Shown: piece after piece, positions 15,589 to 24,607 of the stretch
Numbering within the stretch: the stretch's first letter is position 1
Layout: each line of letters starts with the position of its first letter
DNA from: Andreprevotia sp. IGB-42
Lineage (GTDB): Bacteria; Pseudomonadota; Gammaproteobacteria; Burkholderiales; Chitinibacteraceae
DNA: 64,000 nucleotides
NCBI RefSeq assembly: GCF_009848685.1
Contig: NZ_WXTX01000002.1
Location: forward strand, 186,001 to 250,000
Reading direction: 5' to 3'
Made by a program: the position numbers and the translations under genes
Notes under the pieces: model-generated
The model's database searches: none
What the model saw: the letters and a program-made list of their open reading frames with translations, nothing else
Told to the model about the DNA's origin: nothing

Positions 15589-16887
15589 TTATCGCGGCTT
15601 GAGCCTGAACTCGGCCGCATTGGCATGCGCAGTCAGCCCCTCGCCGTGCGCCAGCACGGCGGCGATCCTGCCCAGCTTCTGCGCGCCCGCTTCGGAGACC
15701 TGGATCAGGCTGCTGCGTTTCTGGAAGTCGTACACGCCCAGCGGGCTGGCAAAACGCGCGGTGCGCGCGGTCGGCAACACGTGATTGGGGCCAGCGCAGT
15801 AATCGCCCAGCGATTCACTGGTGAACTTGCCCATGAAGATGGCGCCGGCGTGGCGCAGCTTGTGCACCCATTCCTTGGGCTCGGCCACTTGCAGCTCCAG
15901 ATGCTCGGGGGCGATCTGGTTGGAAATGGCACATGCTTCGTCCAGATCCTGCACCAGGATCAGCGCCCCGCGGTTTTGCAGCGATGCGGCAATGATGTCG
16001 CGGCGCGGCTGCGTGGGCAGCAGGCGCGCGATGCTCTCTTCCACACGGCTGATGTATGCGGCATCCGGGCACAGCAGGATGGCCTGGGCGATTTCATCGT
16101 GCTCGGCCTGGCTGAAGAGATCGATCGCCACCCAGTCCGGATCGGTGGCGCCGTCGCACAGCACCAGGATTTCGGACGGGCCTGCCACCATGTCGATGCC
16201 GACCACACCGAACACTGCGCGCTTGGCCGCAGCCACATAGGCATTGCCCGGGCCGGTGATCTTGTCGACCGGCGGCACGGTTTGCGTGCCGTACGCCAGC
16301 GCACCGACCGCCTGCGCACCGCCCACGGTAAACGCCCGCGATACGCCGGCGATATAGGCAGCGGCCAGCACCAGATCGTTACGCTCACCTTTGGGGGTTG
16401 GCACCACCATGATGATCTCGGCCACGCCGGCTACGTGCGCGGGGATGGCATTCATCAGCACCGACGACGGGTATGCCGCCTTGCCGCCCGGCACGTAGAT
16501 GCCGACGCGGTCGAGTGCGGTGATCTGCTGGCCCAGCATGGTGCCGTCTTCGTCCTCGTAGCTCCAGGAGGCCATTTTCTGGTGTTCGTGATAGCGGCGC
16601 ACGCGCCCGGCGGCAGCAAGCAGCGCATCACGCTGCTCTGCAGGCAGCCGGTCATGCGCGGCTTTCAGTTCGTCCTGCGTCAGCTCCAGATCAGCCATCG
16701 ATTGCGCAGCGGTGCCGTCAAAACGGTTGGTGTACTCCACCACCGCGGCATCGCCACGTGTTTTCACATCGGCAAGAATGGCGGCCACGCGCTGGTCGAC
16801 CTGCGGGTCTTGCGAGGTTTCGAATGCCAGCAACGCAGCAAGCTGGGTCTGGAAATCGGGGGAACGGGAATCGAGTCGGCGGATCAT
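15589..16887 (-). CDS. hisD: Histidinol dehydrogenase
   Basis: Last two oxidations of histidine synthesis, NAD+ and Zn2+ dependent. The 432-residue protein has the family signature including [13 protein letters not shown], the catalytic Glu-His in [10 protein letters not shown], and zinc ligands in [17 protein letters not shown] and [10 protein letters not shown]. It is intact and of normal length. It is cut off from hisG (7 kb upstream) and from hisC (8 kb downstream) by unrelated genes, and it has its own -10 sequence upstream. Confidence 0.98.
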
Positions 16888-16991: not shown

Positions 16992-17603
16992 TCAGGACAG
17001 TGCCACCTTCAGGCCGAGCGCTACCAGCACGCCTCCCAGCAATTTGTCGATCACGCGTTGCGCGCGGGTCAGCACGCGGCGCACCGGGCCGCTCTGGATC
17101 AGGAACACCAGCAATGGCCACCAGATCACCGCGAGCGCCCAGATCACGAACGCATACCAGAGCTTCTCGAACGTGGTGCTGTGGATATCCAGCACCTGCG
17201 TGAACATCGCCAGGAAAAACAGCGTGGCCTTGGGGTTGAGCAGATTGCACAGCAGGCCCTGCATGAACGCGGCGCGCAAGGTCACCTCCTCCCGCCGGGT
17301 ATCGGGCGAAAGCGTGCTACCGGCTTGCGAGCGCAATGCCTGGATGCCGATCCAGATCAGATAAGCAGCCCCTGCGTACTTGAGCACATTGAACAACCAC
17401 GGCGTGGTGGTGATCACCACCGCAAGGCCGGCCACGCAGTAGGCCATATGTACGAGGACGGCGGTGTTCACGCCGGCCGCCGTCGCCAGCGCGGCCGACC
17501 TGCGGTAGCGCGCGGCATTTTTCACCACCAGGAAGAAATCCGGCCCGGGCGAGAGCATGCCCAGCGTGGCGATGGTGATGACGATCAACGTGGTTTCGAG
17601 CAT
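16992..17603 (-). CDS. LysE/RhtB family amino-acid exporter
   Basis: 203 residues from the ATG at 17603. The LysE superfamily signature is near the N-terminus, TLGMLSPGPDFFLVVKNAAR, followed by GAAYLIWIGIQALRS. Five to six membrane segments are predicted, and GLLCNLLNPKATLFFLAMF is typical of the family. Substrates of this branch are usually amino acids such as homoserine, threonine or lysine, but the substrate here cannot be deduced. It lies about 100 bases upstream of hisD on the same strand. Confidence 0.93.
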   Translation of the reverse strand: MLETTLIVITIATLGMLSPGPDFFLVVKNAARYRRSAALATAAGVNTAVLVHMAYCVAGLAVVITTTPWLFNVLKYAGAAYLIWIGIQALRSQAGSTLSPDTRREEVTLRAAFMQGLLCNLLNPKATLFFLAMFTQVLDIHSTTFEKLWYAFVIWALAVIWWPLLVFLIQSGPVRRVLTRAQRVIDKLLGGVLVALGLKVALS

Positions 17604-17705
17604 GCTCTGATCCAGTGTGGGGACAATAACGGCATCGTGCCGTGGCGACAGTGCACCGACCATGCGGGGTTTCCGTGATGCGTGGCAGCACGGGCCCGTG
17701 GGCAG

Positions 17706-19007
17706 TTACCGGGCCGGTGCTTCGTTGCTCTCGGTACCGTGATCGCTTTCCTGCTCATCGTCGCTATCCATATCCGCGCTGTCTGCCGAATCTGCCCCGG
17801 ACTGGCTTGCCGTGGTTTTTTCATAACGGTGGCGCAGGTTTTCCTTCTTCATCAGGAAGGGCAGCATGATCAGCGACAAGATCAGGCCAAGGCCACCCAC
17901 CACGGTGATCCAGGTGGTTGGCGGCTCGGACGGCGCACCGTATTCGTTCCCGTCCTTGCTACCCGGCACCACGCACAGCGCGAATGAACCCAGCGTGATG
18001 CCGCCAGCGACGACCATACCCAGCGTGGGATTGAACTGATGGCTGGCGTAGCCGGCAATCGATGCACCGGTAATCCAGTAACCGGACAAATTCAGATCAT
18101 GCAGGCGCAGGATGGTTTGCCGTACATACAGCCACCAGACCGCCAAGGACAGGATCGCGGTCAATACGAGCGAGTTCAGTACCAGCACGGCACCAACAAG
18201 CAGGGGAATGGCTGCGACGATCACCACCATGGTATAGGCCAGGTAACGCATGCGGCCGAGCCGGCCATTGCTGCGCAGACTGAAAATCGACGGCGTTTCA
18301 TACCAGGCTTCTTCAGGCGGGGCCGCCTGGCTCCCAGGGTTGCGGGCATAGGGATTGGCAGCGATGTCTGGCTCCCGCGCTTTCAGCCTTTCTGCCTGGG
18401 CTTCCGTTTCGCGCGCGGCAATCATGCGTGGCATGTCGGTGCCGCACCCCAGACACAAGGTGCGCTTGGGCTGTTCACGCCCGCAGGACGGGCAGGTCGT
18501 TGTCGCGGCCGCCACGGCGATTTCATCCACCAGCGCCAGTGCCTGCCTGGGCTGAGGCGCCGGCGTTGCCACCGGGGGCGCCGCCACAGTGGCCGATGCG
18601 GCGGCGGCGATCAGGGGTTCCAGCCCCGGGATCGGGGCCACGGCTGCAGGTTCGGGCACAAGCGAAATCATCGCGACGTGATCTCGTGCAGGCATCGCAG
18701 CCCTGGCATCCGGCACGGACGCCCTGGCTGCCGCCACCGGCTGGTTGGGCGCAGCAGCGGGATCGGCAGGCGGGCGGGCAGGCGGCAAGGTTTTTGCCAC
18801 GACTCCGGCCCTGTTGAGGCCAGCGATATAGGATTCGACATCCTTGTGTGGCAGGTTCTGCTTGATGACCGTGGGCGCATTCTGCAGCAACTGCCGTGCA
18901 CGCCCCAGATCAAGCCGCATGATGCGCGCCAGGTTTTCAGCTGCGCTATCCTCGGTAAAGCCCGGTAGCAAATGTCCTGTCAGTATTAATTGAACCGTAT
19001 CGCTCAT
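17706..19007 (-). CDS. DUF805 membrane protein with N-terminal helical domain and zinc ribbon
   Basis: 433 residues with a composite layout. Residues 1-75 form an alpha/beta domain (VQLILTGHLLPGFTEDSAAE) resembling ribosomal L7/L12-like or SPOR-like small folds; this is a guess. A Pro/Ala-rich linker runs to about residue 165. A zinc ribbon, C-P-S-C ... C-L-G-C, follows at about 170-188. A DUF805 membrane domain comes next, with SLRSNGRLGRMRYLAYTMVV, LRLHDLNLSGYW and VPGSKDGNEYGAP. It ends in an acidic Asp/Ser/Glu tail. It is divergent from the lipid-type cluster that starts at 19208. Confidence 0.82.
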   Translation of the reverse strand: MSDTVQLILTGHLLPGFTEDSAAENLARIMRLDLGRARQLLQNAPTVIKQNLPHKDVESYIAGLNRAGVVAKTLPPARPPADPAAAPNQPVAAARASVPDARAAMPARDHVAMISLVPEPAAVAPIPGLEPLIAAAASATVAAPPVATPAPQPRQALALVDEIAVAAATTTCPSCGREQPKRTLCLGCGTDMPRMIAARETEAQAERLKAREPDIAANPYARNPGSQAAPPEEAWYETPSIFSLRSNGRLGRMRYLAYTMVVIVAAIPLLVGAVLVLNSLVLTAILSLAVWWLYVRQTILRLHDLNLSGYWITGASIAGYASHQFNPTLGMVVAGGITLGSFALCVVPGSKDGNEYGAPSEPPTTWITVVGGLGLILSLIMLPFLMKKENLRHRYEKTTASQSGADSADSADMDSDDEQESDHGTESNEAPAR

Positions 19008-19207: not shown

Positions 19208-19984
19208 ATGCGCGAATACATACTCCACTGCAGTTGGTACCAGATCATCGTGGTGGGCTGGGTGTTCTTTGGCGGCCTGTATCTGGGCATGGGCGCACTC
19301 AACACGTTGCTGAGCCGGTACGTATTGCCCGCTGTGCACTACGGCCGGCCGCTGGACCCACGCCCGCTGCTGCCGGGCCAGACCCGGCGCGAATTGTTGC
19401 AATCGGCCGGCTCCGTTTTCCTGTTCGGCATCGACATGATCTTTCCGTGGGGCCTGCTGCAGCTGGGCTGGGCGCAGCTGGCCATGGCCCCGCCATGGTG
19501 GCAAAGCGCGCTGGAGATCCTGGTGCTGGTGGTATGGAACGAAGTGCACTTCTACGCCAACCACTGGCTGCTGCATACGCGCTGGCTGCGGCGATTTCAC
19601 ATGCAGCATCACCGCTCGGTGGTGGTGACGCCGTGGGCCGCCTACAGTTTCCACCCGGTAGAGGCGCTGATGCTGGGCAACGTGGTGATGCTGCCCATGG
19701 TGGTACACGACTTCAGCGTGTGGGCAGTGGTTGCGCTGCCGGTTGTCAGCCTGGTGTTCAACAACATCGGCCATTCAAACTACGACTTCCTGCCCGATGC
19801 GCATGCCGACCGCTGGTGGCTCAACGGTGCGCGCCGCCATCATCTGCATCATGCGTGCTTTCACGGCAACTTCGGCTTCATGTTCCCGTTCATGGATCGG
19901 CTGTTCGGTACCGCGCTGCCGCCGGACGCCGCCGACAAACACATCGACAGCTGGCGTGCACGGCACGCGCGCGATGCTGCGTAA
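19208..19984 (+). CDS. Fatty acid hydroxylase / sterol desaturase superfamily protein
   Basis: 258 residues, integral membrane, non-heme diiron. The three His boxes are complete: HWLLH (HX3H) at about residue 117, HMQHH (HX2HH) at about 131, and HHLHH followed by FHGNFG near 219. Membrane segments flank them. The family hydroxylates or desaturates lipid chains, sterols or carotenoids. This gene opens a plus-strand cluster with a desaturase and a ketosynthase-oxidase fusion and overlaps the desaturase by 11 bases, so a lipid-chain substrate is likely. Bacteria of this group make few sterols, so sterol is improbable. Confidence 0.9.
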   Translation: MREYILHCSWYQIIVVGWVFFGGLYLGMGALNTLLSRYVLPAVHYGRPLDPRPLLPGQTRRELLQSAGSVFLFGIDMIFPWGLLQLGWAQLAMAPPWWQSALEILVLVVWNEVHFYANHWLLHTRWLRRFHMQHHRSVVVTPWAAYSFHPVEALMLGNVVMLPMVVHDFSVWAVVALPVVSLVFNNIGHSNYDFLPDAHADRWWLNGARRHHLHHACFHGNFGFMFPFMDRLFGTALPPDAADKHIDSWRARHARDAA

Positions 19985-20828
19985 TTGGCGCGATCTGCAA
20001 TCACTGACCTACCTGACTGCGTTGCCGCTGCTGGTGGCATGGCAATGGCGGCACGGTTTCAGCTGGCCACTGTATGCGGCCGTGCTGTTCCTCACGCTGG
20101 GCGTGGGGGTCATCCATCACAACCACGCGCACTTGCCCATGTGGCATAGCCGCTGGCTGAACCGGCAGGGCGATTTCTGGCTGACACTGTTGCAGGGCCA
20201 CCCCACCTATGTGTTCCACGCCACACATGTGGCCAATCACCACCGCTACCGCCACGGCCCGCAAGATATCGTGCGGACCTACCGCTTTGGCGACCACAAC
20301 CACCTGGCCGGCTACCTGCTGCACCCGTTGCAGGCGGTGCCGGTGCTGTACCCGGTCTTCGTGGCATGGTTGCGGCAACTGCAGCGCCGCGACCCCGCTG
20401 CGCTGCGCTATTGCCAGCTGCAATACGCAGCAGTGCTGATGCTATGGGGCAGCCTTGCATGGCTGGATTGGCAAAAATGGCTGTTGCTGGTACTGATCCC
20501 GCAATTGCACGGGCTGCACTGGCTGCTAGCCACCAACTACCTGCAGCATGCCCATGCCGATGGCCATTCTCGCATCAATTACGCGCGCAATTTTGAAGGC
20601 TGGGTGAATCCGCTACTGTTCAATATCGGCCTGCATACCGCCCATCACGAACACCCGCGTGCGCACTGGTCTGAACTGACCGCGCTGCACCAGCGCTACC
20701 GCAGCCAGGTAGATCCGCGCCTCAACGCCGGTGGCCTGCTGCCCTATATGTGCCGTACTTTCCTGCTCAGCCTCGTTTTGCCGCGCCATCGCAGCCACAG
20801 CCTGATGGCGCCCCCGGAGACCCATTGA
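19974..20828 (+). CDS. Membrane fatty acid desaturase
   Basis: 284 residues from the ATG at 19974. The His boxes of acyl-lipid desaturases are present: H-H-N-H-A-H at about residue 47, HATHVANHHRY at about 80, and HTAHHEHPRAHW near 222. An extra HAHADGH motif lies near 191. At least three membrane segments are predicted. The upstream part of the frame is out-of-frame sequence inside the hydroxylase gene, so the internal ATG is used. TGATG overlap with the next gene indicates coupled translation. Double-bond position and substrate are not deducible. Confidence 0.9.
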   Translation: MLRNWRDLQSLTYLTALPLLVAWQWRHGFSWPLYAAVLFLTLGVGVIHHNHAHLPMWHSRWLNRQGDFWLTLLQGHPTYVFHATHVANHHRYRHGPQDIVRTYRFGDHNHLAGYLLHPLQAVPVLYPVFVAWLRQLQRRDPAALRYCQLQYAAVLMLWGSLAWLDWQKWLLLVLIPQLHGLHWLLATNYLQHAHADGHSRINYARNFEGWVNPLLFNIGLHTAHHEHPRAHWSELTALHQRYRSQVDPRLNAGGLLPYMCRTFLLSLVLPRHRSHSLMAPPETH

Positions 20829-22717
20829 TGCCCACCCGTTTCAAGCACGTTTACATCGAAGCCGCCGGCTACCACCTGCCCGGGCCGCCAGTGGGCAACG
20901 ATGCCATGGATGCGTATATCGCCCCGATCAACCGTATTTCCGGCCGCATCAAGGCACGCATCCTGGCGGAAAACGGCATCAGGACCCGCCACTACGCAAT
21001 CGATGCTGACGGCAATACCGTGCTGTCGCACGCGCGGCTGGCTGCCAATGCGGTGGCCGATTGCCTGCAGCGTGCGCAGGCCACCATCGCCGACGTCTCA
21101 CTACTGGCAGCAGGCTCGTCCGGCGGGGATGCGCTGATGCCGGGCTTTGCCAGCATGATCCAGGGCGAACTGGGCGCACCGCCGATGGCCACGCTATCGA
21201 GCCAGGGCGTATGTGCTGCCGGCGTAACGGCGCTGGCACACGCCGCCCAGGGCATCGAGCTGGGTGCGCACCGGCAGGCGCTGGTGGTGGCGGCGGAGAT
21301 GCCCTCGCGCATGTTCAAGCACAGCCGCTTTGCACCACGCGGTTACGATAGCGATTTCGATGCGCATTTCCTGCGCTGGATGCTGTCGGACGGCGCGGGT
21401 GCCATGCTGCTGACCGACAGCCCGAGCGGGCGTAACGGGTTACGACTCAAGCTGAACTGGGTGCATCAGCAGAGCTTCGCCGGCGATTACCCGGTCTGCA
21501 TGCAGCTGGGGCTGAGCGAGGATCGCAGCACCTCCTTCCTTGATTACCCGTCGAGCAGCGAAGCGGAAGCCGCCGGAGCGCTGTCGTTGCGCCAGGACAT
21601 CCGCCTGCTGCCGCACCTGTTCGATGTATCGATCCACGAATACGTGAAGCTGGTGGAGGCAGGCTGGGTGACATCGGCCGGGGTCGATCACTTTTTGTGC
21701 CACTACTCGTCCGAAAAATTCATTCCGGTGGTGGAAGACCTGCTGGACAAGGCCGGGCTGACCATCCCGAAGGAGCGCTGGTACAGCAACCTTGCCACGC
21801 GCGGCAATACCGGTGCGGCGTCCATCTTCGTGATGCTGGCCGAGTTCCTCGATACCCATGCGGTGCAGCCGGGGGAGAAAATCCTCTGTTTCATCCCCGA
21901 ATCGGGCCGCATCAGCGCTGCCTACATGCTGCTGGAAGTGGAAGATGCCACTGCGCCGCTGGCCACAGCCACGCGGGGCGCCGTAGCAGTGCCGGCCAGC
22001 TGCGATACCGTACCCGGCACCATCACCGCGCCACACGATCCCGCCAGCGCGCCCGAGCCGTTGCAACCGCTGCTGACCGCGCTTGCGGGCATCTGGCATG
22101 ACTACCGCTCGAAAGTCTGGCGCAGCCCGGTGATCCACAAGCTGGTGGCCGGCCGTTTCGGGCTGGCCGATTACCGCAGCTGGATCGCGCAATGGGTGCC
22201 GCAGGTGCGCGAGGGCAGCCTGTGGATGCGCGAAGCGGTGGCATCGCTGACGGGGCCGTTTGCCGAGCTGGGTGCGCTGATCGAAATGCACGCCGGCGAT
22301 GAACAGAACGACTTCATGATCCTGTATCAGGATTACCGGGCAGCCGGCGGCAGCGCGCCGCTCGATACGCTGCGGCGCAATCCGGGTGGCGAGGCGCTCA
22401 ATGCCTACCTGCACGCGCTGGCCGCAACGGAAAACCCGCTGGGTTTGCTGGGGGCGATTTACGTGATCGAGGGCACTGGCCAGCGCATCGTGCCCGCGTT
22501 GCTGCCACTGCTGCGCAAGCAGGTGGACTTGCCCGCCAGCGCATTCCGCTTTCTGGAATACCACGGCGCCAACGATGAACATCATCTGGCGCGCTGGCTG
22601 GCGGCGGTCGAGATCACGCTGGACATATCACCAGCGGCAGCCGACGCCATCCTCGCCACCGCAAAGCGCACCGCGCAGCTGTACCTGATGCAGTTCGAGC
22701 ACATCATTGCGCATTGA
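20828..22717 (+). CDS. StlD/DarB-like ketosynthase fused to a heme-oxygenase-like diiron oxidase domain
   Basis: 629 residues in two domains. Residues 1-375 resemble StlD/DarB ketosynthases (dialkylresorcinol-type condensing enzymes, FabH fold), with the fingerprints NDAMDAYIAPINRISGRIK and FLRWMLSDGAGAMLL. The triad is intact: Cys129 in SSQGVCAAG, His292 in FLCHYSSEKF and Asn327 in TRGNTGAAS. After an Ala/Pro linker, residues 410-629 look like an iron-containing redox enzyme of the TenA/PqqC/UndA-type fold. Its candidate metal ligands are Glu486, His488, Glu548, His579, Asp583 and His586. The ATG overlaps the desaturase stop. Such a fusion could condense two acyl chains and then oxidise the product. 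No aromatase is seen nearby, so the product is unknown. Confidence 0.85.
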   Translation: MPTRFKHVYIEAAGYHLPGPPVGNDAMDAYIAPINRISGRIKARILAENGIRTRHYAIDADGNTVLSHARLAANAVADCLQRAQATIADVSLLAAGSSGGDALMPGFASMIQGELGAPPMATLSSQGVCAAGVTALAHAAQGIELGAHRQALVVAAEMPSRMFKHSRFAPRGYDSDFDAHFLRWMLSDGAGAMLLTDSPSGRNGLRLKLNWVHQQSFAGDYPVCMQLGLSEDRSTSFLDYPSSSEAEAAGALSLRQDIRLLPHLFDVSIHEYVKLVEAGWVTSAGVDHFLCHYSSEKFIPVVEDLLDKAGLTIPKERWYSNLATRGNTGAASIFVMLAEFLDTHAVQPGEKILCFIPESGRISAAYMLLEVEDATAPLATATRGAVAVPASCDTVPGTITAPHDPASAPEPLQPLLTALAGIWHDYRSKVWRSPVIHKLVAGRFGLADYRSWIAQWVPQVREGSLWMREAVASLTGPFAELGALIEMHAGDEQNDFMILYQDYRAAGGSAPLDTLRRNPGGEALNAYLHALAATENPLGLLGAIYVIEGTGQRIVPALLPLLRKQVDLPASAFRFLEYHGANDEHHLARWLAAVEITLDISPAAADAILATAKRTAQLYLMQFEHIIAH

Positions 22718-23006
22718 GTTTTGCCAATGGCCAGTCATAAAACAGGATTAGCTGCTGTCTGGCTATCCAGGTTGAGGCGGTTTTTTTTAATGCAGATTTA
22801 TCCAAAGCAACCCACTGCCCACTACAGAGCCCCGAAGAACCACTGACGAGTGACAACGAGGCGCCCTCGCGGCGGCGAGGGCGGGGGAAGTGGAATGGAA
22901 CAGGATGTGCCGCTGCTTCGCTCTTCCACGATAGCTTGGAGCCCGGCTTGGCCGGGCTTTTGATACGATTTGGCTCACCGTAGCCGTCACATGGAACAAC
23001 AAGGCG
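22718..23006. other. Intergenic region, GC-rich and hairpin-bearing, no gene seen
   Basis: 289 bases between the ketosynthase fusion and the next plus-strand gene. It contains a T8 run at about 22782-22789 and a hairpin with arms CCCTCGC and GCGAGGG near 22863-22880. A second hairpin with a T run is listed separately. The texture resembles a dispersed extragenic repeat. No codon-like pattern or start with a ribosome binding site is visible on either strand. Confidence 0.5.
22940..22963 (+). terminator. Rho-independent terminator after the ketosynthase-oxidase gene
   Basis: AGCCCGGC and GCCGGGCT arms flank a TT loop at 22940-22957 and are followed by a short TTTT run. It lies about 220 bases downstream of the fusion gene and about 45 bases before the next ORF, so it may limit read-through into that ORF. 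Confidence 0.6.
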
Positions 23007-23894
23007 ATGAAACACCTGCCCAACTTCCTGCTGCAAGAGCACGACCCGCGCGACCCCAATCCGTGGCTGGCGCTTTACCTGGACCAAAGCACGCCGCTAC
23101 CCGATCACGTGAAGCGCGCATGGCTGGCCGATTCCAGCTCCGTAGCGCGGCAGTTCCTGCTGCCCTTCGTGCGCCCGCTGGCACGGGTCAGCATCATCCT
23201 GATCCAGGTGGTGAAGACGTTCATGCCGCGCCGCTGGGCGGCATCGCGTTTCCTGCACTGGCTGCTGGCGGAGGGGCTGAAAAAGCTGGTGTCCCCGGAA
23301 GCCAACTGGCTGGTGATGCGGCACTTCCACATCGGTGGGCAGATCCTCGAGTTCATCGCGAAGAACGCGCCGGTACCGGCAGAAACCGCGCCGCTCAAGC
23401 CCTTGGTGCTGGATGACCTGAAAGATGACACGTTTCTCAAACACGATCTCAACCTGTTCAACTTCGTGATCAGGCTGAACCAGGCGCTGCGCTTTGCAGA
23501 TCAATCGCTGATCCCGCTGGACCGCCCCGATTTCAGCATGATCGAAGAACCGCCGCTGTCGCTGGCCGCGATGCCGCATGGCCGGCTCAATGTGGTCGAT
23601 CTGCAAACGGCCATCGAATGCTTCACGCCGGTCTACCAGCTCTTCCTCACCGACAACGATTTCTGGCGGGCCGCCAACTCGCTGCAGCTGGATGAAACCA
23701 TTGCCGTCTATGCCGCCACCATCCTCAACGCACCGCAGCATCTGCTGCTGCTCAACAACAAGCATCCATTGGTGCCGCTAAGCACCTTGCGCGCCGGTTA
23801 CCGGCTGGTGTTGCACGGGCTGTCATCCGAAATGCTGCACGCGCTGCTGATGCAGCTGAAAGCGGCGCAGCAGGCCGAGGATCAGGCGCGCTGA
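23007..23894 (+). CDS. Uncharacterised protein next to the lipid-type cluster
   Basis: 295 residues, family not recognised. The N-terminus has HDPRDPNPWLALYLDQSTPL, then amphipathic or weakly hydrophobic helices (RQFLLPFVRPLARVSIILIQ). A cluster of potential metal ligands, EANWLVMRHFHIGGQILEF, spaces Glu, His, His and Glu within one or two helices. There is no signal peptide and no clear transmembrane span, though membrane association is possible. It is codirectional with the hydroxylase-desaturase-ketosynthase genes and is followed by a terminator, so it may be the last member of that set. A terminator-like hairpin upstream leaves open separate transcription. Confidence 0.8.
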   Translation: MKHLPNFLLQEHDPRDPNPWLALYLDQSTPLPDHVKRAWLADSSSVARQFLLPFVRPLARVSIILIQVVKTFMPRRWAASRFLHWLLAEGLKKLVSPEANWLVMRHFHIGGQILEFIAKNAPVPAETAPLKPLVLDDLKDDTFLKHDLNLFNFVIRLNQALRFADQSLIPLDRPDFSMIEEPPLSLAAMPHGRLNVVDLQTAIECFTPVYQLFLTDNDFWRAANSLQLDETIAVYAATILNAPQHLLLLNNKHPLVPLSTLRAGYRLVLHGLSSEMLHALLMQLKAAQQAEDQAR

Positions 23895-23910: not shown

Positions 23911-23933
23911 AACGCCCCGACATACGGGGCGTT
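23911..23933. terminator. Bidirectional terminator between the 295-residue gene and hisG
   Basis: Perfect stem AACGCCCCG / CGGGGCGTT with a five-base loop. On the minus strand it is followed by TTTCTTT, which suits hisG. On the plus strand it closes the convergent gene and is followed by CTGCTTG, a weaker tract. Confidence 0.8.
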
Positions 23934-23956: not shown

Positions 23957-24607
23957 TCAATCGGCTTCGCGCGCGGCCACGGTTGCCGCAAATGCATCGA
24001 GCACCGGCTGGATCAGGTCGTGCTTGAGCTTGAGCGCAGCCTGATTCACCACCAGGCGGCTGGAGATATCGCGGATGTGTTCAACCGCCACCAGCTTGTT
24101 GGCCTTGAGCGTGCCGCCGGTGGACACCAGGTCGACAATGGCGTCCGCCAAGCCTACCAGCGGCGCCAGCTCCATCGAACCGTACAGCTTGATCAGGTCC
24201 ACGTGCACGCCTTTGGCGGCAAAGTGTTCTTGCGCGCCATACGTGTACTTGGTGGCCACGCGCAAACGCGCACCCTGCTTGACGGCGCCCTCGTAATCGA
24301 AGCCCTCGCGCACGGCAACCATCAGCTTGCACTTGGCGATTTCCAGGTCCAGCGGCTGGTAGAGGCCCGCACCACCATGCTCGAGCAGCACGTCCTTGCC
24401 GGCAATGCCAAGGTCGGCTGCGCCATATTGCACATAGGTCGGCACGTCGGTGGCGCGCACGATGATCAGGCGCACATCGTCGCGGTTGGTGCCGATGATG
24501 AGCTTGCGGCTCGCTTCCGGGTCTTCGCTCGGTACCACGCCTGCGGCGGCAAGCAGCGGCAGGGTTTCTTCGAAAATACGGCCTTTGGACAGCGCAATCG
24601 TGATCAT
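23957..24607 (-). CDS. hisG: ATP phosphoribosyltransferase catalytic subunit, short form
   Basis: First committed step of histidine synthesis (ATP + PRPP). At 216 residues this is the short HisG_S form, which lacks the C-terminal ACT-like regulatory domain and requires the HisZ partner. HisZ is not in this window. It begins [19 protein letters not shown] and carries [17 protein letters not shown] and the PRPP-binding loop [16 protein letters not shown]. It lies 5 bases after the DUF4870 gene downstream of murA. hisD no longer follows it; a plus-strand cluster intervenes. Confidence 0.97.

Follow-up and report, generated by a model that had tools for sequence, protein, structure and literature searches.

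A conserved bacterial gene cluster built around a ketosynthase-oxidase fusion and a DUF6999 protein points to a possible new route to ring-shaped lipids

Background

The DarA-DarB(-DarH) system is the dialkylresorcinol system of flexirubin and arcuflavin. Excerpts of the literature on this system state that DarB forms 4-carboxy-2,5-dialkylcyclohexane-1,3-diones (PMC5515871, citing Fuchs 2013), label DarA a "DAR-aromatase" in a table where it stands next to DarB (PMC3949708), and report that heterologous darA and darB together yield a dialkylresorcinol (PMC3992019). Oxidases of the heme-oxygenase-like type (HDOs) use O2 and are mostly dimetal enzymes. Among them, UndA converts a fatty acid to an alkene and CO2, and both UndA and BesC cleave C-C bonds (excerpts of PMC13108848).

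Here we describe a gene cluster of Andreprevotia sp. IGB-42 that bears on both kinds of enzyme. The window analysed is a stretch of 64,000 nucleotides of contig NZ_WXTX01000002.1. An original prediction, made from the letters of the window alone, had placed in it a lipid-type cluster of four genes, and all four open reading frames were found at positions 19208-23894 of the plus strand. They encode a membrane hydroxylase, a membrane desaturase, a ketosynthase (KS) fused to an HDO domain (KS-HDO), and a protein of the Pfam family DUF6999. The cluster is conserved and may represent a route to ring-shaped lipids that is yet to be characterised. We put at about 0.5 the probability that it is a biosynthetic operon whose pathway, as read from the sequences, would be a variant of the StlD/DarB (dialkylresorcinol) pathway with the HDO replacing the DarA aromatase. 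No description of the KS-HDO fusion or of DUF6999 was found in the literature searched, where subscription journals and preprints were thinly covered, and novelty is not proven.

Gene content and conservation of the cluster

The first gene (19208-19984) encodes a membrane FA_hydroxylase-type protein of 258 residues (PF04116, 84.3 bits by Pfam), in which the His boxes HMQHH and HHLHH are read. The second (19974-20828; ATG at 19974, stop at 20826-20828) encodes a membrane FA_desaturase-type protein of 284 residues (PF00487, 86.2 bits in a Pfam scan read from 19977) with the His boxes HHNHAH, HVANHH and HTAHH. Both gene overlaps named in the original prediction are present in the sequence: the hydroxylase and desaturase genes share 11 bases (19974-19984), and TGATG at 20826-20830 joins the desaturase stop to the KS-HDO start. 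The fusion gene (20828-22717) encodes 629 residues from the ATG at 20828, which is the likelier start; residue numbers below count from the TTG at 20825. The KS domain covers residues 6-374 (20840-21946) and the HDO domain residues 405-627 (22037-22705). The predicted model of the fusion has a mean predicted local distance difference test score (pLDDT) of 80.4 and a predicted template modelling score of 0.59. The DUF6999 gene (23007-23894, 295 residues) follows after a gap of 289 bp (22718-23006) that many relatives lack; repeats were sought in this gap and none was found.

We followed these genes through several sets of genomes. The genomes were taken one per species and are related, so that the counts are not independent events, and the order, class and phylum-level draws partly share genomes and therefore are not independent of each other. 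In the family sample of 43 genomes, with the window's own genome counted, KS-HDO is found in 16 and DUF6999 in exactly the same 16, and all 15 family relatives have the genes arranged as hydroxylase, desaturase, KS-HDO, DUF6999. One hydroxylase gene (L029:1301-2028, genome G031) is read in two frames, which suggests decay or a sequencing error. At a threshold of 1e-30, used in the order and phylum draws, 14 of the 200 genomes of the order draw match: 11 carry the whole fusion (the window's own included) and three the KS only. DUF6999 accompanies the fusion in 10 of the 10 relatives; seven of them have both membrane oxygenases, two the hydroxylase only (L080, L082) and one the desaturase only (L081). 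The HDO subfamily is present in nine of the 398 genomes of the phylum draw, DUF6999 is present in the same nine and adjacent to it in all of them, and the KS is also present in the three new genomes among the nine.

The class draw of 274 genomes, searched at 1e-5, lists 201 of them, since FabH-like and other HDO-like proteins match, and only the strong matches listed are interpreted here. DUF6999 was found in six of these genomes, four of which (G000, G133, G255, G313) have strong KS and HDO matches. In G310 an orphan DUF6999 gene (L087:9392-10285), with no HDO match, lies beside a gene that looks transposase-like by sight, and in G288 (L089) there are DUF6999 pieces and a KS piece with internal stops. 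Both are apparent relics of lost clusters.

A scan of genome contigs with the fusion alignment confirmed at least 591 stretches, some of which may be KS-only. The best 80 of these, picked by likeness to the fusion, are referred to below as the named loci. Their neighbouring genes were scored by tblastn on the same strand within 6 kb. All locus counts in this work rest on tblastn or hidden Markov model searches; simple gene calling missed genes in G+C-rich loci. DUF6999 was found in 77 named loci, the hydroxylase in 47, the desaturase in 42, both oxygenases in 39 and neither in 30. Because DUF6999 is present in 77 of the 80, against 47 and 42 for the membrane oxygenases, the conserved core is KS and HDO (fused or as the next gene) together with DUF6999, and the hydroxylase and desaturase are accessories. 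The original prediction joined one condensing enzyme and three potential diiron oxygenases in one pathway. That these genes act together is supported, with the two membrane oxygenases as accessory members.

The genes belong together, and their co-occurrence is far beyond chance, as the counts in the family and phylum samples and in the named loci show. That unrelated genes merely lie side by side could be argued from the four-gene form not being universal. The shared occurrence in an identical set of genomes, 16 of 43 in the family sample and 9 of 398 in the phylum draw, in effect refutes it, and the gene overlaps and the gene fusion also speak against it.

The ketosynthase domain and its contrast with dialkylresorcinol clusters

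The KS domain matches the NCBIfam StlD/DarB model PRK06816 with 331 bits (E 1e-98, residues 9-372), below the curated cut-off of 450, and the NCBIfam DarB model with 262, below the cut-off of 550. With PRK06816, other KS-HDO proteins score 394 (Shewanella), 414 (Pedobacter) and 444.7 (cyanobacterial), and the KS of L083, a locus with no HDO, scores 593. The sequence search of the PDB found StlD (5gk0, E 2.4e-62), which is also the top Foldseek match (E 6.8e-27, 34% identity); further fold matches are AbyA1, PqsD, FabH and OleA. Residue conservation was counted in an alignment from 113 sources, and sources without a match (two for the KS, five for the HDO, six for DUF6999) are outside the denominators. 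The KS triad is conserved: C130 in 109 of 111 sequences (two gaps), H293 and N328 in 111 of 111, three loci without HDO being included in this count.

The AbyA1, PqsD, FabH and OleA matches and the score under the DarB cut-off would also suit a different chemistry, in which the KS makes a linear beta-keto product or a pyrone/lactone and the HDO cleaves or oxygenates the chain to a non-aromatic alkene, ketone or hydroxy-lipid; the C-C cleavage by UndA and BesC is a precedent for it. We find this doubtful, as StlD is by far the best KS match in both sequence and fold, and the cyanobacterial KS-HDO comes to 444.7 against the cut-off of 450.

Eighteen loci with an StlD/DarB KS and no HDO (L083-L085, L171, L173-L186), called DarB-only below, were used for comparison; L171-L186 are only about 3-4 kb long. 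As the DarA-like reference we took the protein whose gene overlaps the KS gene in L083 and L085, i.e., is in the DarA position. This protein of about 330 residues was found in 17 of the 18 DarB-only loci, the exception being L174, near a contig end, and DarH, named by NCBIfam, gave a strong match in 13 of the 18. Among 107 KS-HDO loci, at least four of which (L135, L142, L143, L165) have less than 1 kb upstream, neither the DarA-like protein (0/107) nor the BtrH-related acyltransferase DarH had a match at 1e-3. Searches of six whole KS-HDO genomes, among them that of the window, likewise gave no DarA-like protein, but three DarB-only genomes used as controls had it. The claim that the cluster is not a standard dialkylresorcinol operon is thus borne out in the related loci and in the window's genome.

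A KS tree was built from 77 domains chosen from loci (51 fused, 8 split, 18 without HDO) and midpoint-rooted; none was dropped after the choice, and two of its entries, L088 and L172, are one gene. The 18 DarB-only KSs stand on one side of one branch with support 100/99.

These results bear on the reading of the locus as an ordinary dialkylresorcinol cluster, with the oxidase an extra and an aromatase encoded elsewhere doing the DarA step. The KS is near the StlD/DarB family, and excerpts of PMC9045304 give an antiSMASH "resorcinol" region with DarB as the core gene in an Achromobacter mucicolens strain. Achromobacter loci are among the named relatives that carry KS-HDO, and A. mucicolens LMG 26685 has the fusion (L100); antiSMASH thus probably flags a KS-HDO locus as "resorcinol", the published region being, by inference, the same locus. 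The lack of a DarA-like protein in the 107 loci and the six whole genomes, the DarB-only KSs grouping apart and DUF6999 beside KS-HDO in 77 of 80 loci make such an ordinary cluster improbable.

The oxidase domain

Pfam Haem_oxygenas_2 (PF14518) matches residues 514-620 with 45.9 bits, over the cut-off of 28.9, and together with the PRK06816 score this agrees with the predicted fusion of an StlD/DarB-like ketosynthase with a TenA/UndA-like oxidase. The separate HDO of L145 scores 37 bits with PF14518. A single solved relative is significant by the HDO profile, 3dde (E 2.7e-11), which is TenA/heme-oxygenase-like and was deposited as of unknown function.

None of the 108 loci departs from H489, E493, D496, E549, H580, D584 or H587, and the E463 column holds E in 91, Q in 9 and D in 8 of them. 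At the residue level, the domain therefore retains residues of the metal-ligand type; a lack of metal ligands in an aligned structure had been named beforehand as making a joint pathway unlikely. According to excerpts of PMC11363339, HDO ligands follow the motif E-H-E-H-(D/E)-H, whose first two members lie on helix alpha1. H489, E549, H580, D584 and H587 match its last five positions, and E463 and E493 are candidates for the first Glu. The HDO is probably a dimetal O2-using domain.

In eight of the 77 tree rows (two being the same gene), KS and HDO are separate adjacent genes. Five gammaproteobacterial loci (L145, L147, L150, L156, L157) have this split form, as do L222 and L223 from two further genomes, and so does a Pseudoalteromonas megaplasmid, where the genes of the locus carry the labels "beta-ketoacyl-ACP synthase III", "iron-containing redox enzyme family protein" and "hypothetical protein". 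Since the HDO is a separate neighbouring gene in several loci, the two halves serve one pathway. At L155:6870-8749, KS and HDO are two overlapping open reading frames with a fused tree neighbour, which may reflect fission, or a frameshift or sequence error.

The DUF6999 protein

The fourth product, rightly predicted at 295 residues and then taken to be of no known family, has a family of its own in Pfam: it matches PF22523 (DUF6999) with 420.8 bits, over the gathering cut-off of 27. The Pfam entry has no described function. The predicted model has a mean pLDDT of 83.7. H106 and H146 are conserved in 107 of 107 loci, and D147, D198 and D229 in 106 of 107. Of the 17 relatives in which starts were called (16 with fused and one with split genes), 11 have the DUF6999 start codon overlapping the stop codon before it. 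On this evidence, DUF6999 looks like an obligatory partner of KS-HDO rather than a bystander.

A relation of DUF6999 to the HDO, as a divergent member of that fold, is unsupported: comparison of profiles with the HDO alignment gave 0.2% probability and Foldseek nothing below E 1. The HDO/TenA-fold entries 9pj2, 9prr and 1udd are in its Foldseek top 50 at E 4.9-7.5, which is not significant.

DUF6999 was found in none of 50,697 phage records and in one of 72,556 plasmid records, the Pseudoalteromonas megaplasmid. Among 14 control genomes only Caulobacter vibrioides has it, so that some form of the system may exist in a model organism.

Proposed pathway

Given a missing DarA and an HDO joined to the ketosynthase, the most economical interpretation is oxidation of the ketosynthase product by the HDO. 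In the StlD/DarB variant to which we give the probability of about 0.5, the ketosynthase would condense and cyclise two acyl thioesters to a (4-carboxy-)2,5-dialkylcyclohexane-1,3-dione, as DarB does. The attached HDO would oxidise the cyclohexanedione ring in DarA's place, giving a dialkylresorcinol or a further oxidised ring, and DUF6999 would perform or support the next step. Where they are present, as in the window's lineage, the membrane hydroxylase and desaturase might modify the alkyl chains.

Several points weigh against this pathway. With 34% identity to StlD and scores under both NCBIfam cut-offs, the KS product could differ. The midpoint root nests the DarB-only group among KS-HDO lineages, next to the split L088/L172, and KS-HDO therefore need not be one clade. 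The "DarA-like" protein is named by its position beside DarB, and Pfam and NCBIfam recognise neither of the two examples scanned. The HDO does not plainly show the published ligand motif: no conserved acidic residue stands just before H489, and the conserved E493 and D496 come after it. For DUF6999, neither a fold match (best Foldseek E 1.2) nor a PDB match by sequence was found. Finally, DUF6999 was missed in three named loci: in L090 the contig ends just after the fusion, and of the 80 only the Variovorax loci L115 and L121 clearly break the link to DUF6999, having a desaturase and KS-HDO at the locus with neither DUF6999 nor a hydroxylase.

A more specific and rather unlikely version, argued by analogy with UndA, makes the HDO a decarboxylating aromatase of an O2- and metal-dependent aromatic-lipid route, with DUF6999 as a new dedicated enzyme. 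The KS would make a 4-carboxy-2,5-dialkylcyclohexane-1,3-dione, and UndA-like chemistry would remove its carboxylate as CO2 together with the neighbouring hydrogen, leaving a C4=C5 double bond, and this product would tautomerise to the dialkylresorcinol, so that the aromatic ring would arise in one step. If true, bacteria of several phyla would have this route to aromatic lipids in common.

The cluster connects the orphan family DUF6999 and a so far uncharacterised HDO subfamily with a ketosynthase pathway that is tractable and occurs in several phyla, and the gene fusion places the oxidase next to the enzyme expected to make its substrate. A diiron-type oxidase at the usual position of the DarA aromatase would be a new solution for making resorcinol-type lipids, and two kinds of cluster that differ in chemistry may be lumped together in automatic "resorcinol" calls.

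Accessory oxygenases and taxonomic spread

Both the hydroxylase and the desaturase stand beside KS-HDO in 15 of 15 family relatives. This, with the 39 of 80 named loci that have both, is what could be said for a membrane-lipid modification operon centred on these two enzymes, with KS-HDO providing a modified acyl chain. The 30 named loci with neither, where KS, HDO and DUF6999 persist, speak against such an operon, which we consider quite improbable; at least four of the 30 are on contigs that are short upstream (the sequence of L135 and of L142 starts within the KS, and there is less than 1 kb in L143 and L165). Two more of those scored as having neither carry such a gene in another orientation, namely a divergent FA_desaturase in L160 and an opposite-strand FA_hydroxylase in L133.

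In seven of the 30 loci without a hydroxylase or desaturase match, a conserved His-containing membrane-type protein of about 190 residues is encoded beside the core (L145:3620-4195, L147:6605-7165, L150:7426-7998, L156:7432-7998, L157:440-1009, L160:10757-11344, L166:10792-11352). Its motifs include CHR, HExxAH and ExHxHxYL, and in the three examples scanned against Pfam no family was over its cut-off. In these loci without a PF04116 hydroxylase, the protein may stand in as an oxygenase.

KS-HDO loci were found in Pseudomonadota, Cyanobacteriota and Bacteroidota, and on single metagenome-assembled contigs labelled Acidobacteriota, Verrucomicrobiota, Planctomycetota and Bdellovibrionota. Because Cellvibrio, a gammaproteobacterium, and Rhodoferax are close to the window KS in the tree and the window's family is split, the tree points to horizontal spread of KS-HDO.

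Genomic setting

The cluster was said to separate hisG from hisD and to be consistent with insertion. The two genes, named by sight here as in the original prediction, do flank it on the minus strand (hisG at 23957-24607, hisD at 15589-16887), with two further minus-strand genes between the cluster and hisD: one for a DUF805 protein (17706-19007) and one of LysE type (16992-17663; named by sight). hisD was located in seven other family genomes, and its surroundings were viewed for G002. This congener has hisG-lysE-hisD without the DUF805 gene and without the cluster, in line with insertion. Another congener, G003, has the cluster with all the same flanks, and G016, of another genus, has it beside DUF805, lysE and hisD, hisG not being found in the 20 kb fetched. 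G013 has only the DUF805 side in common with the window. A clearly recent insertion is unsupported: G016 has the cluster at the same DUF805-lysE-hisD side, and the G+C content of the cluster (0.61-0.65) is in keeping with that of its surroundings (0.59-0.65). The cluster is a presence/absence block that does not look recent. The DUF805 gene is missing together with the cluster in G002 and lies beside it in G003, G016 and G013; its matches in G016 and G013 are in two pieces with 39-49% identity.

A terminator-like hairpin with a 9-pair stem lies 3' of the DUF6999 gene (23911-23933, plus strand). It could plausibly end the transcription unit; five terminator-like sites were observed in the region against 3.2 expected, which makes it a weak signal. 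In G843 a split cluster (L223:7238-8140) also adjoins hisG, in the other orientation, which is probably a coincidence.

Comparison with known systems

The best solved relative of the window KS domain is StlD of the Photorhabdus stilbene pathway (PDB 5gk0-5gk2), which, unlike the window KS-HDO, has no fused oxidase. The A. mucicolens "resorcinol" region is an automatic call, and the excerpts of PMC9045304 report no product and mention neither an oxidase nor DUF6999. With UndA, BesC, SznF and CADD the window HDO has PF14518 in common, and its invariant residues include three His and three or more acidic ones; it differs from them in being attached to a ketosynthase and in having acidic residues after, not before, the first His. 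With the DarAB system the window KS has in common the ketosynthase superfamily and the Cys-His-Asn triad, and the joining and cyclising of two acyl chains would be expected of both. In the window-type loci, however, an HDO oxidase and DUF6999 stand in place of the DarA-like protein and DarH.

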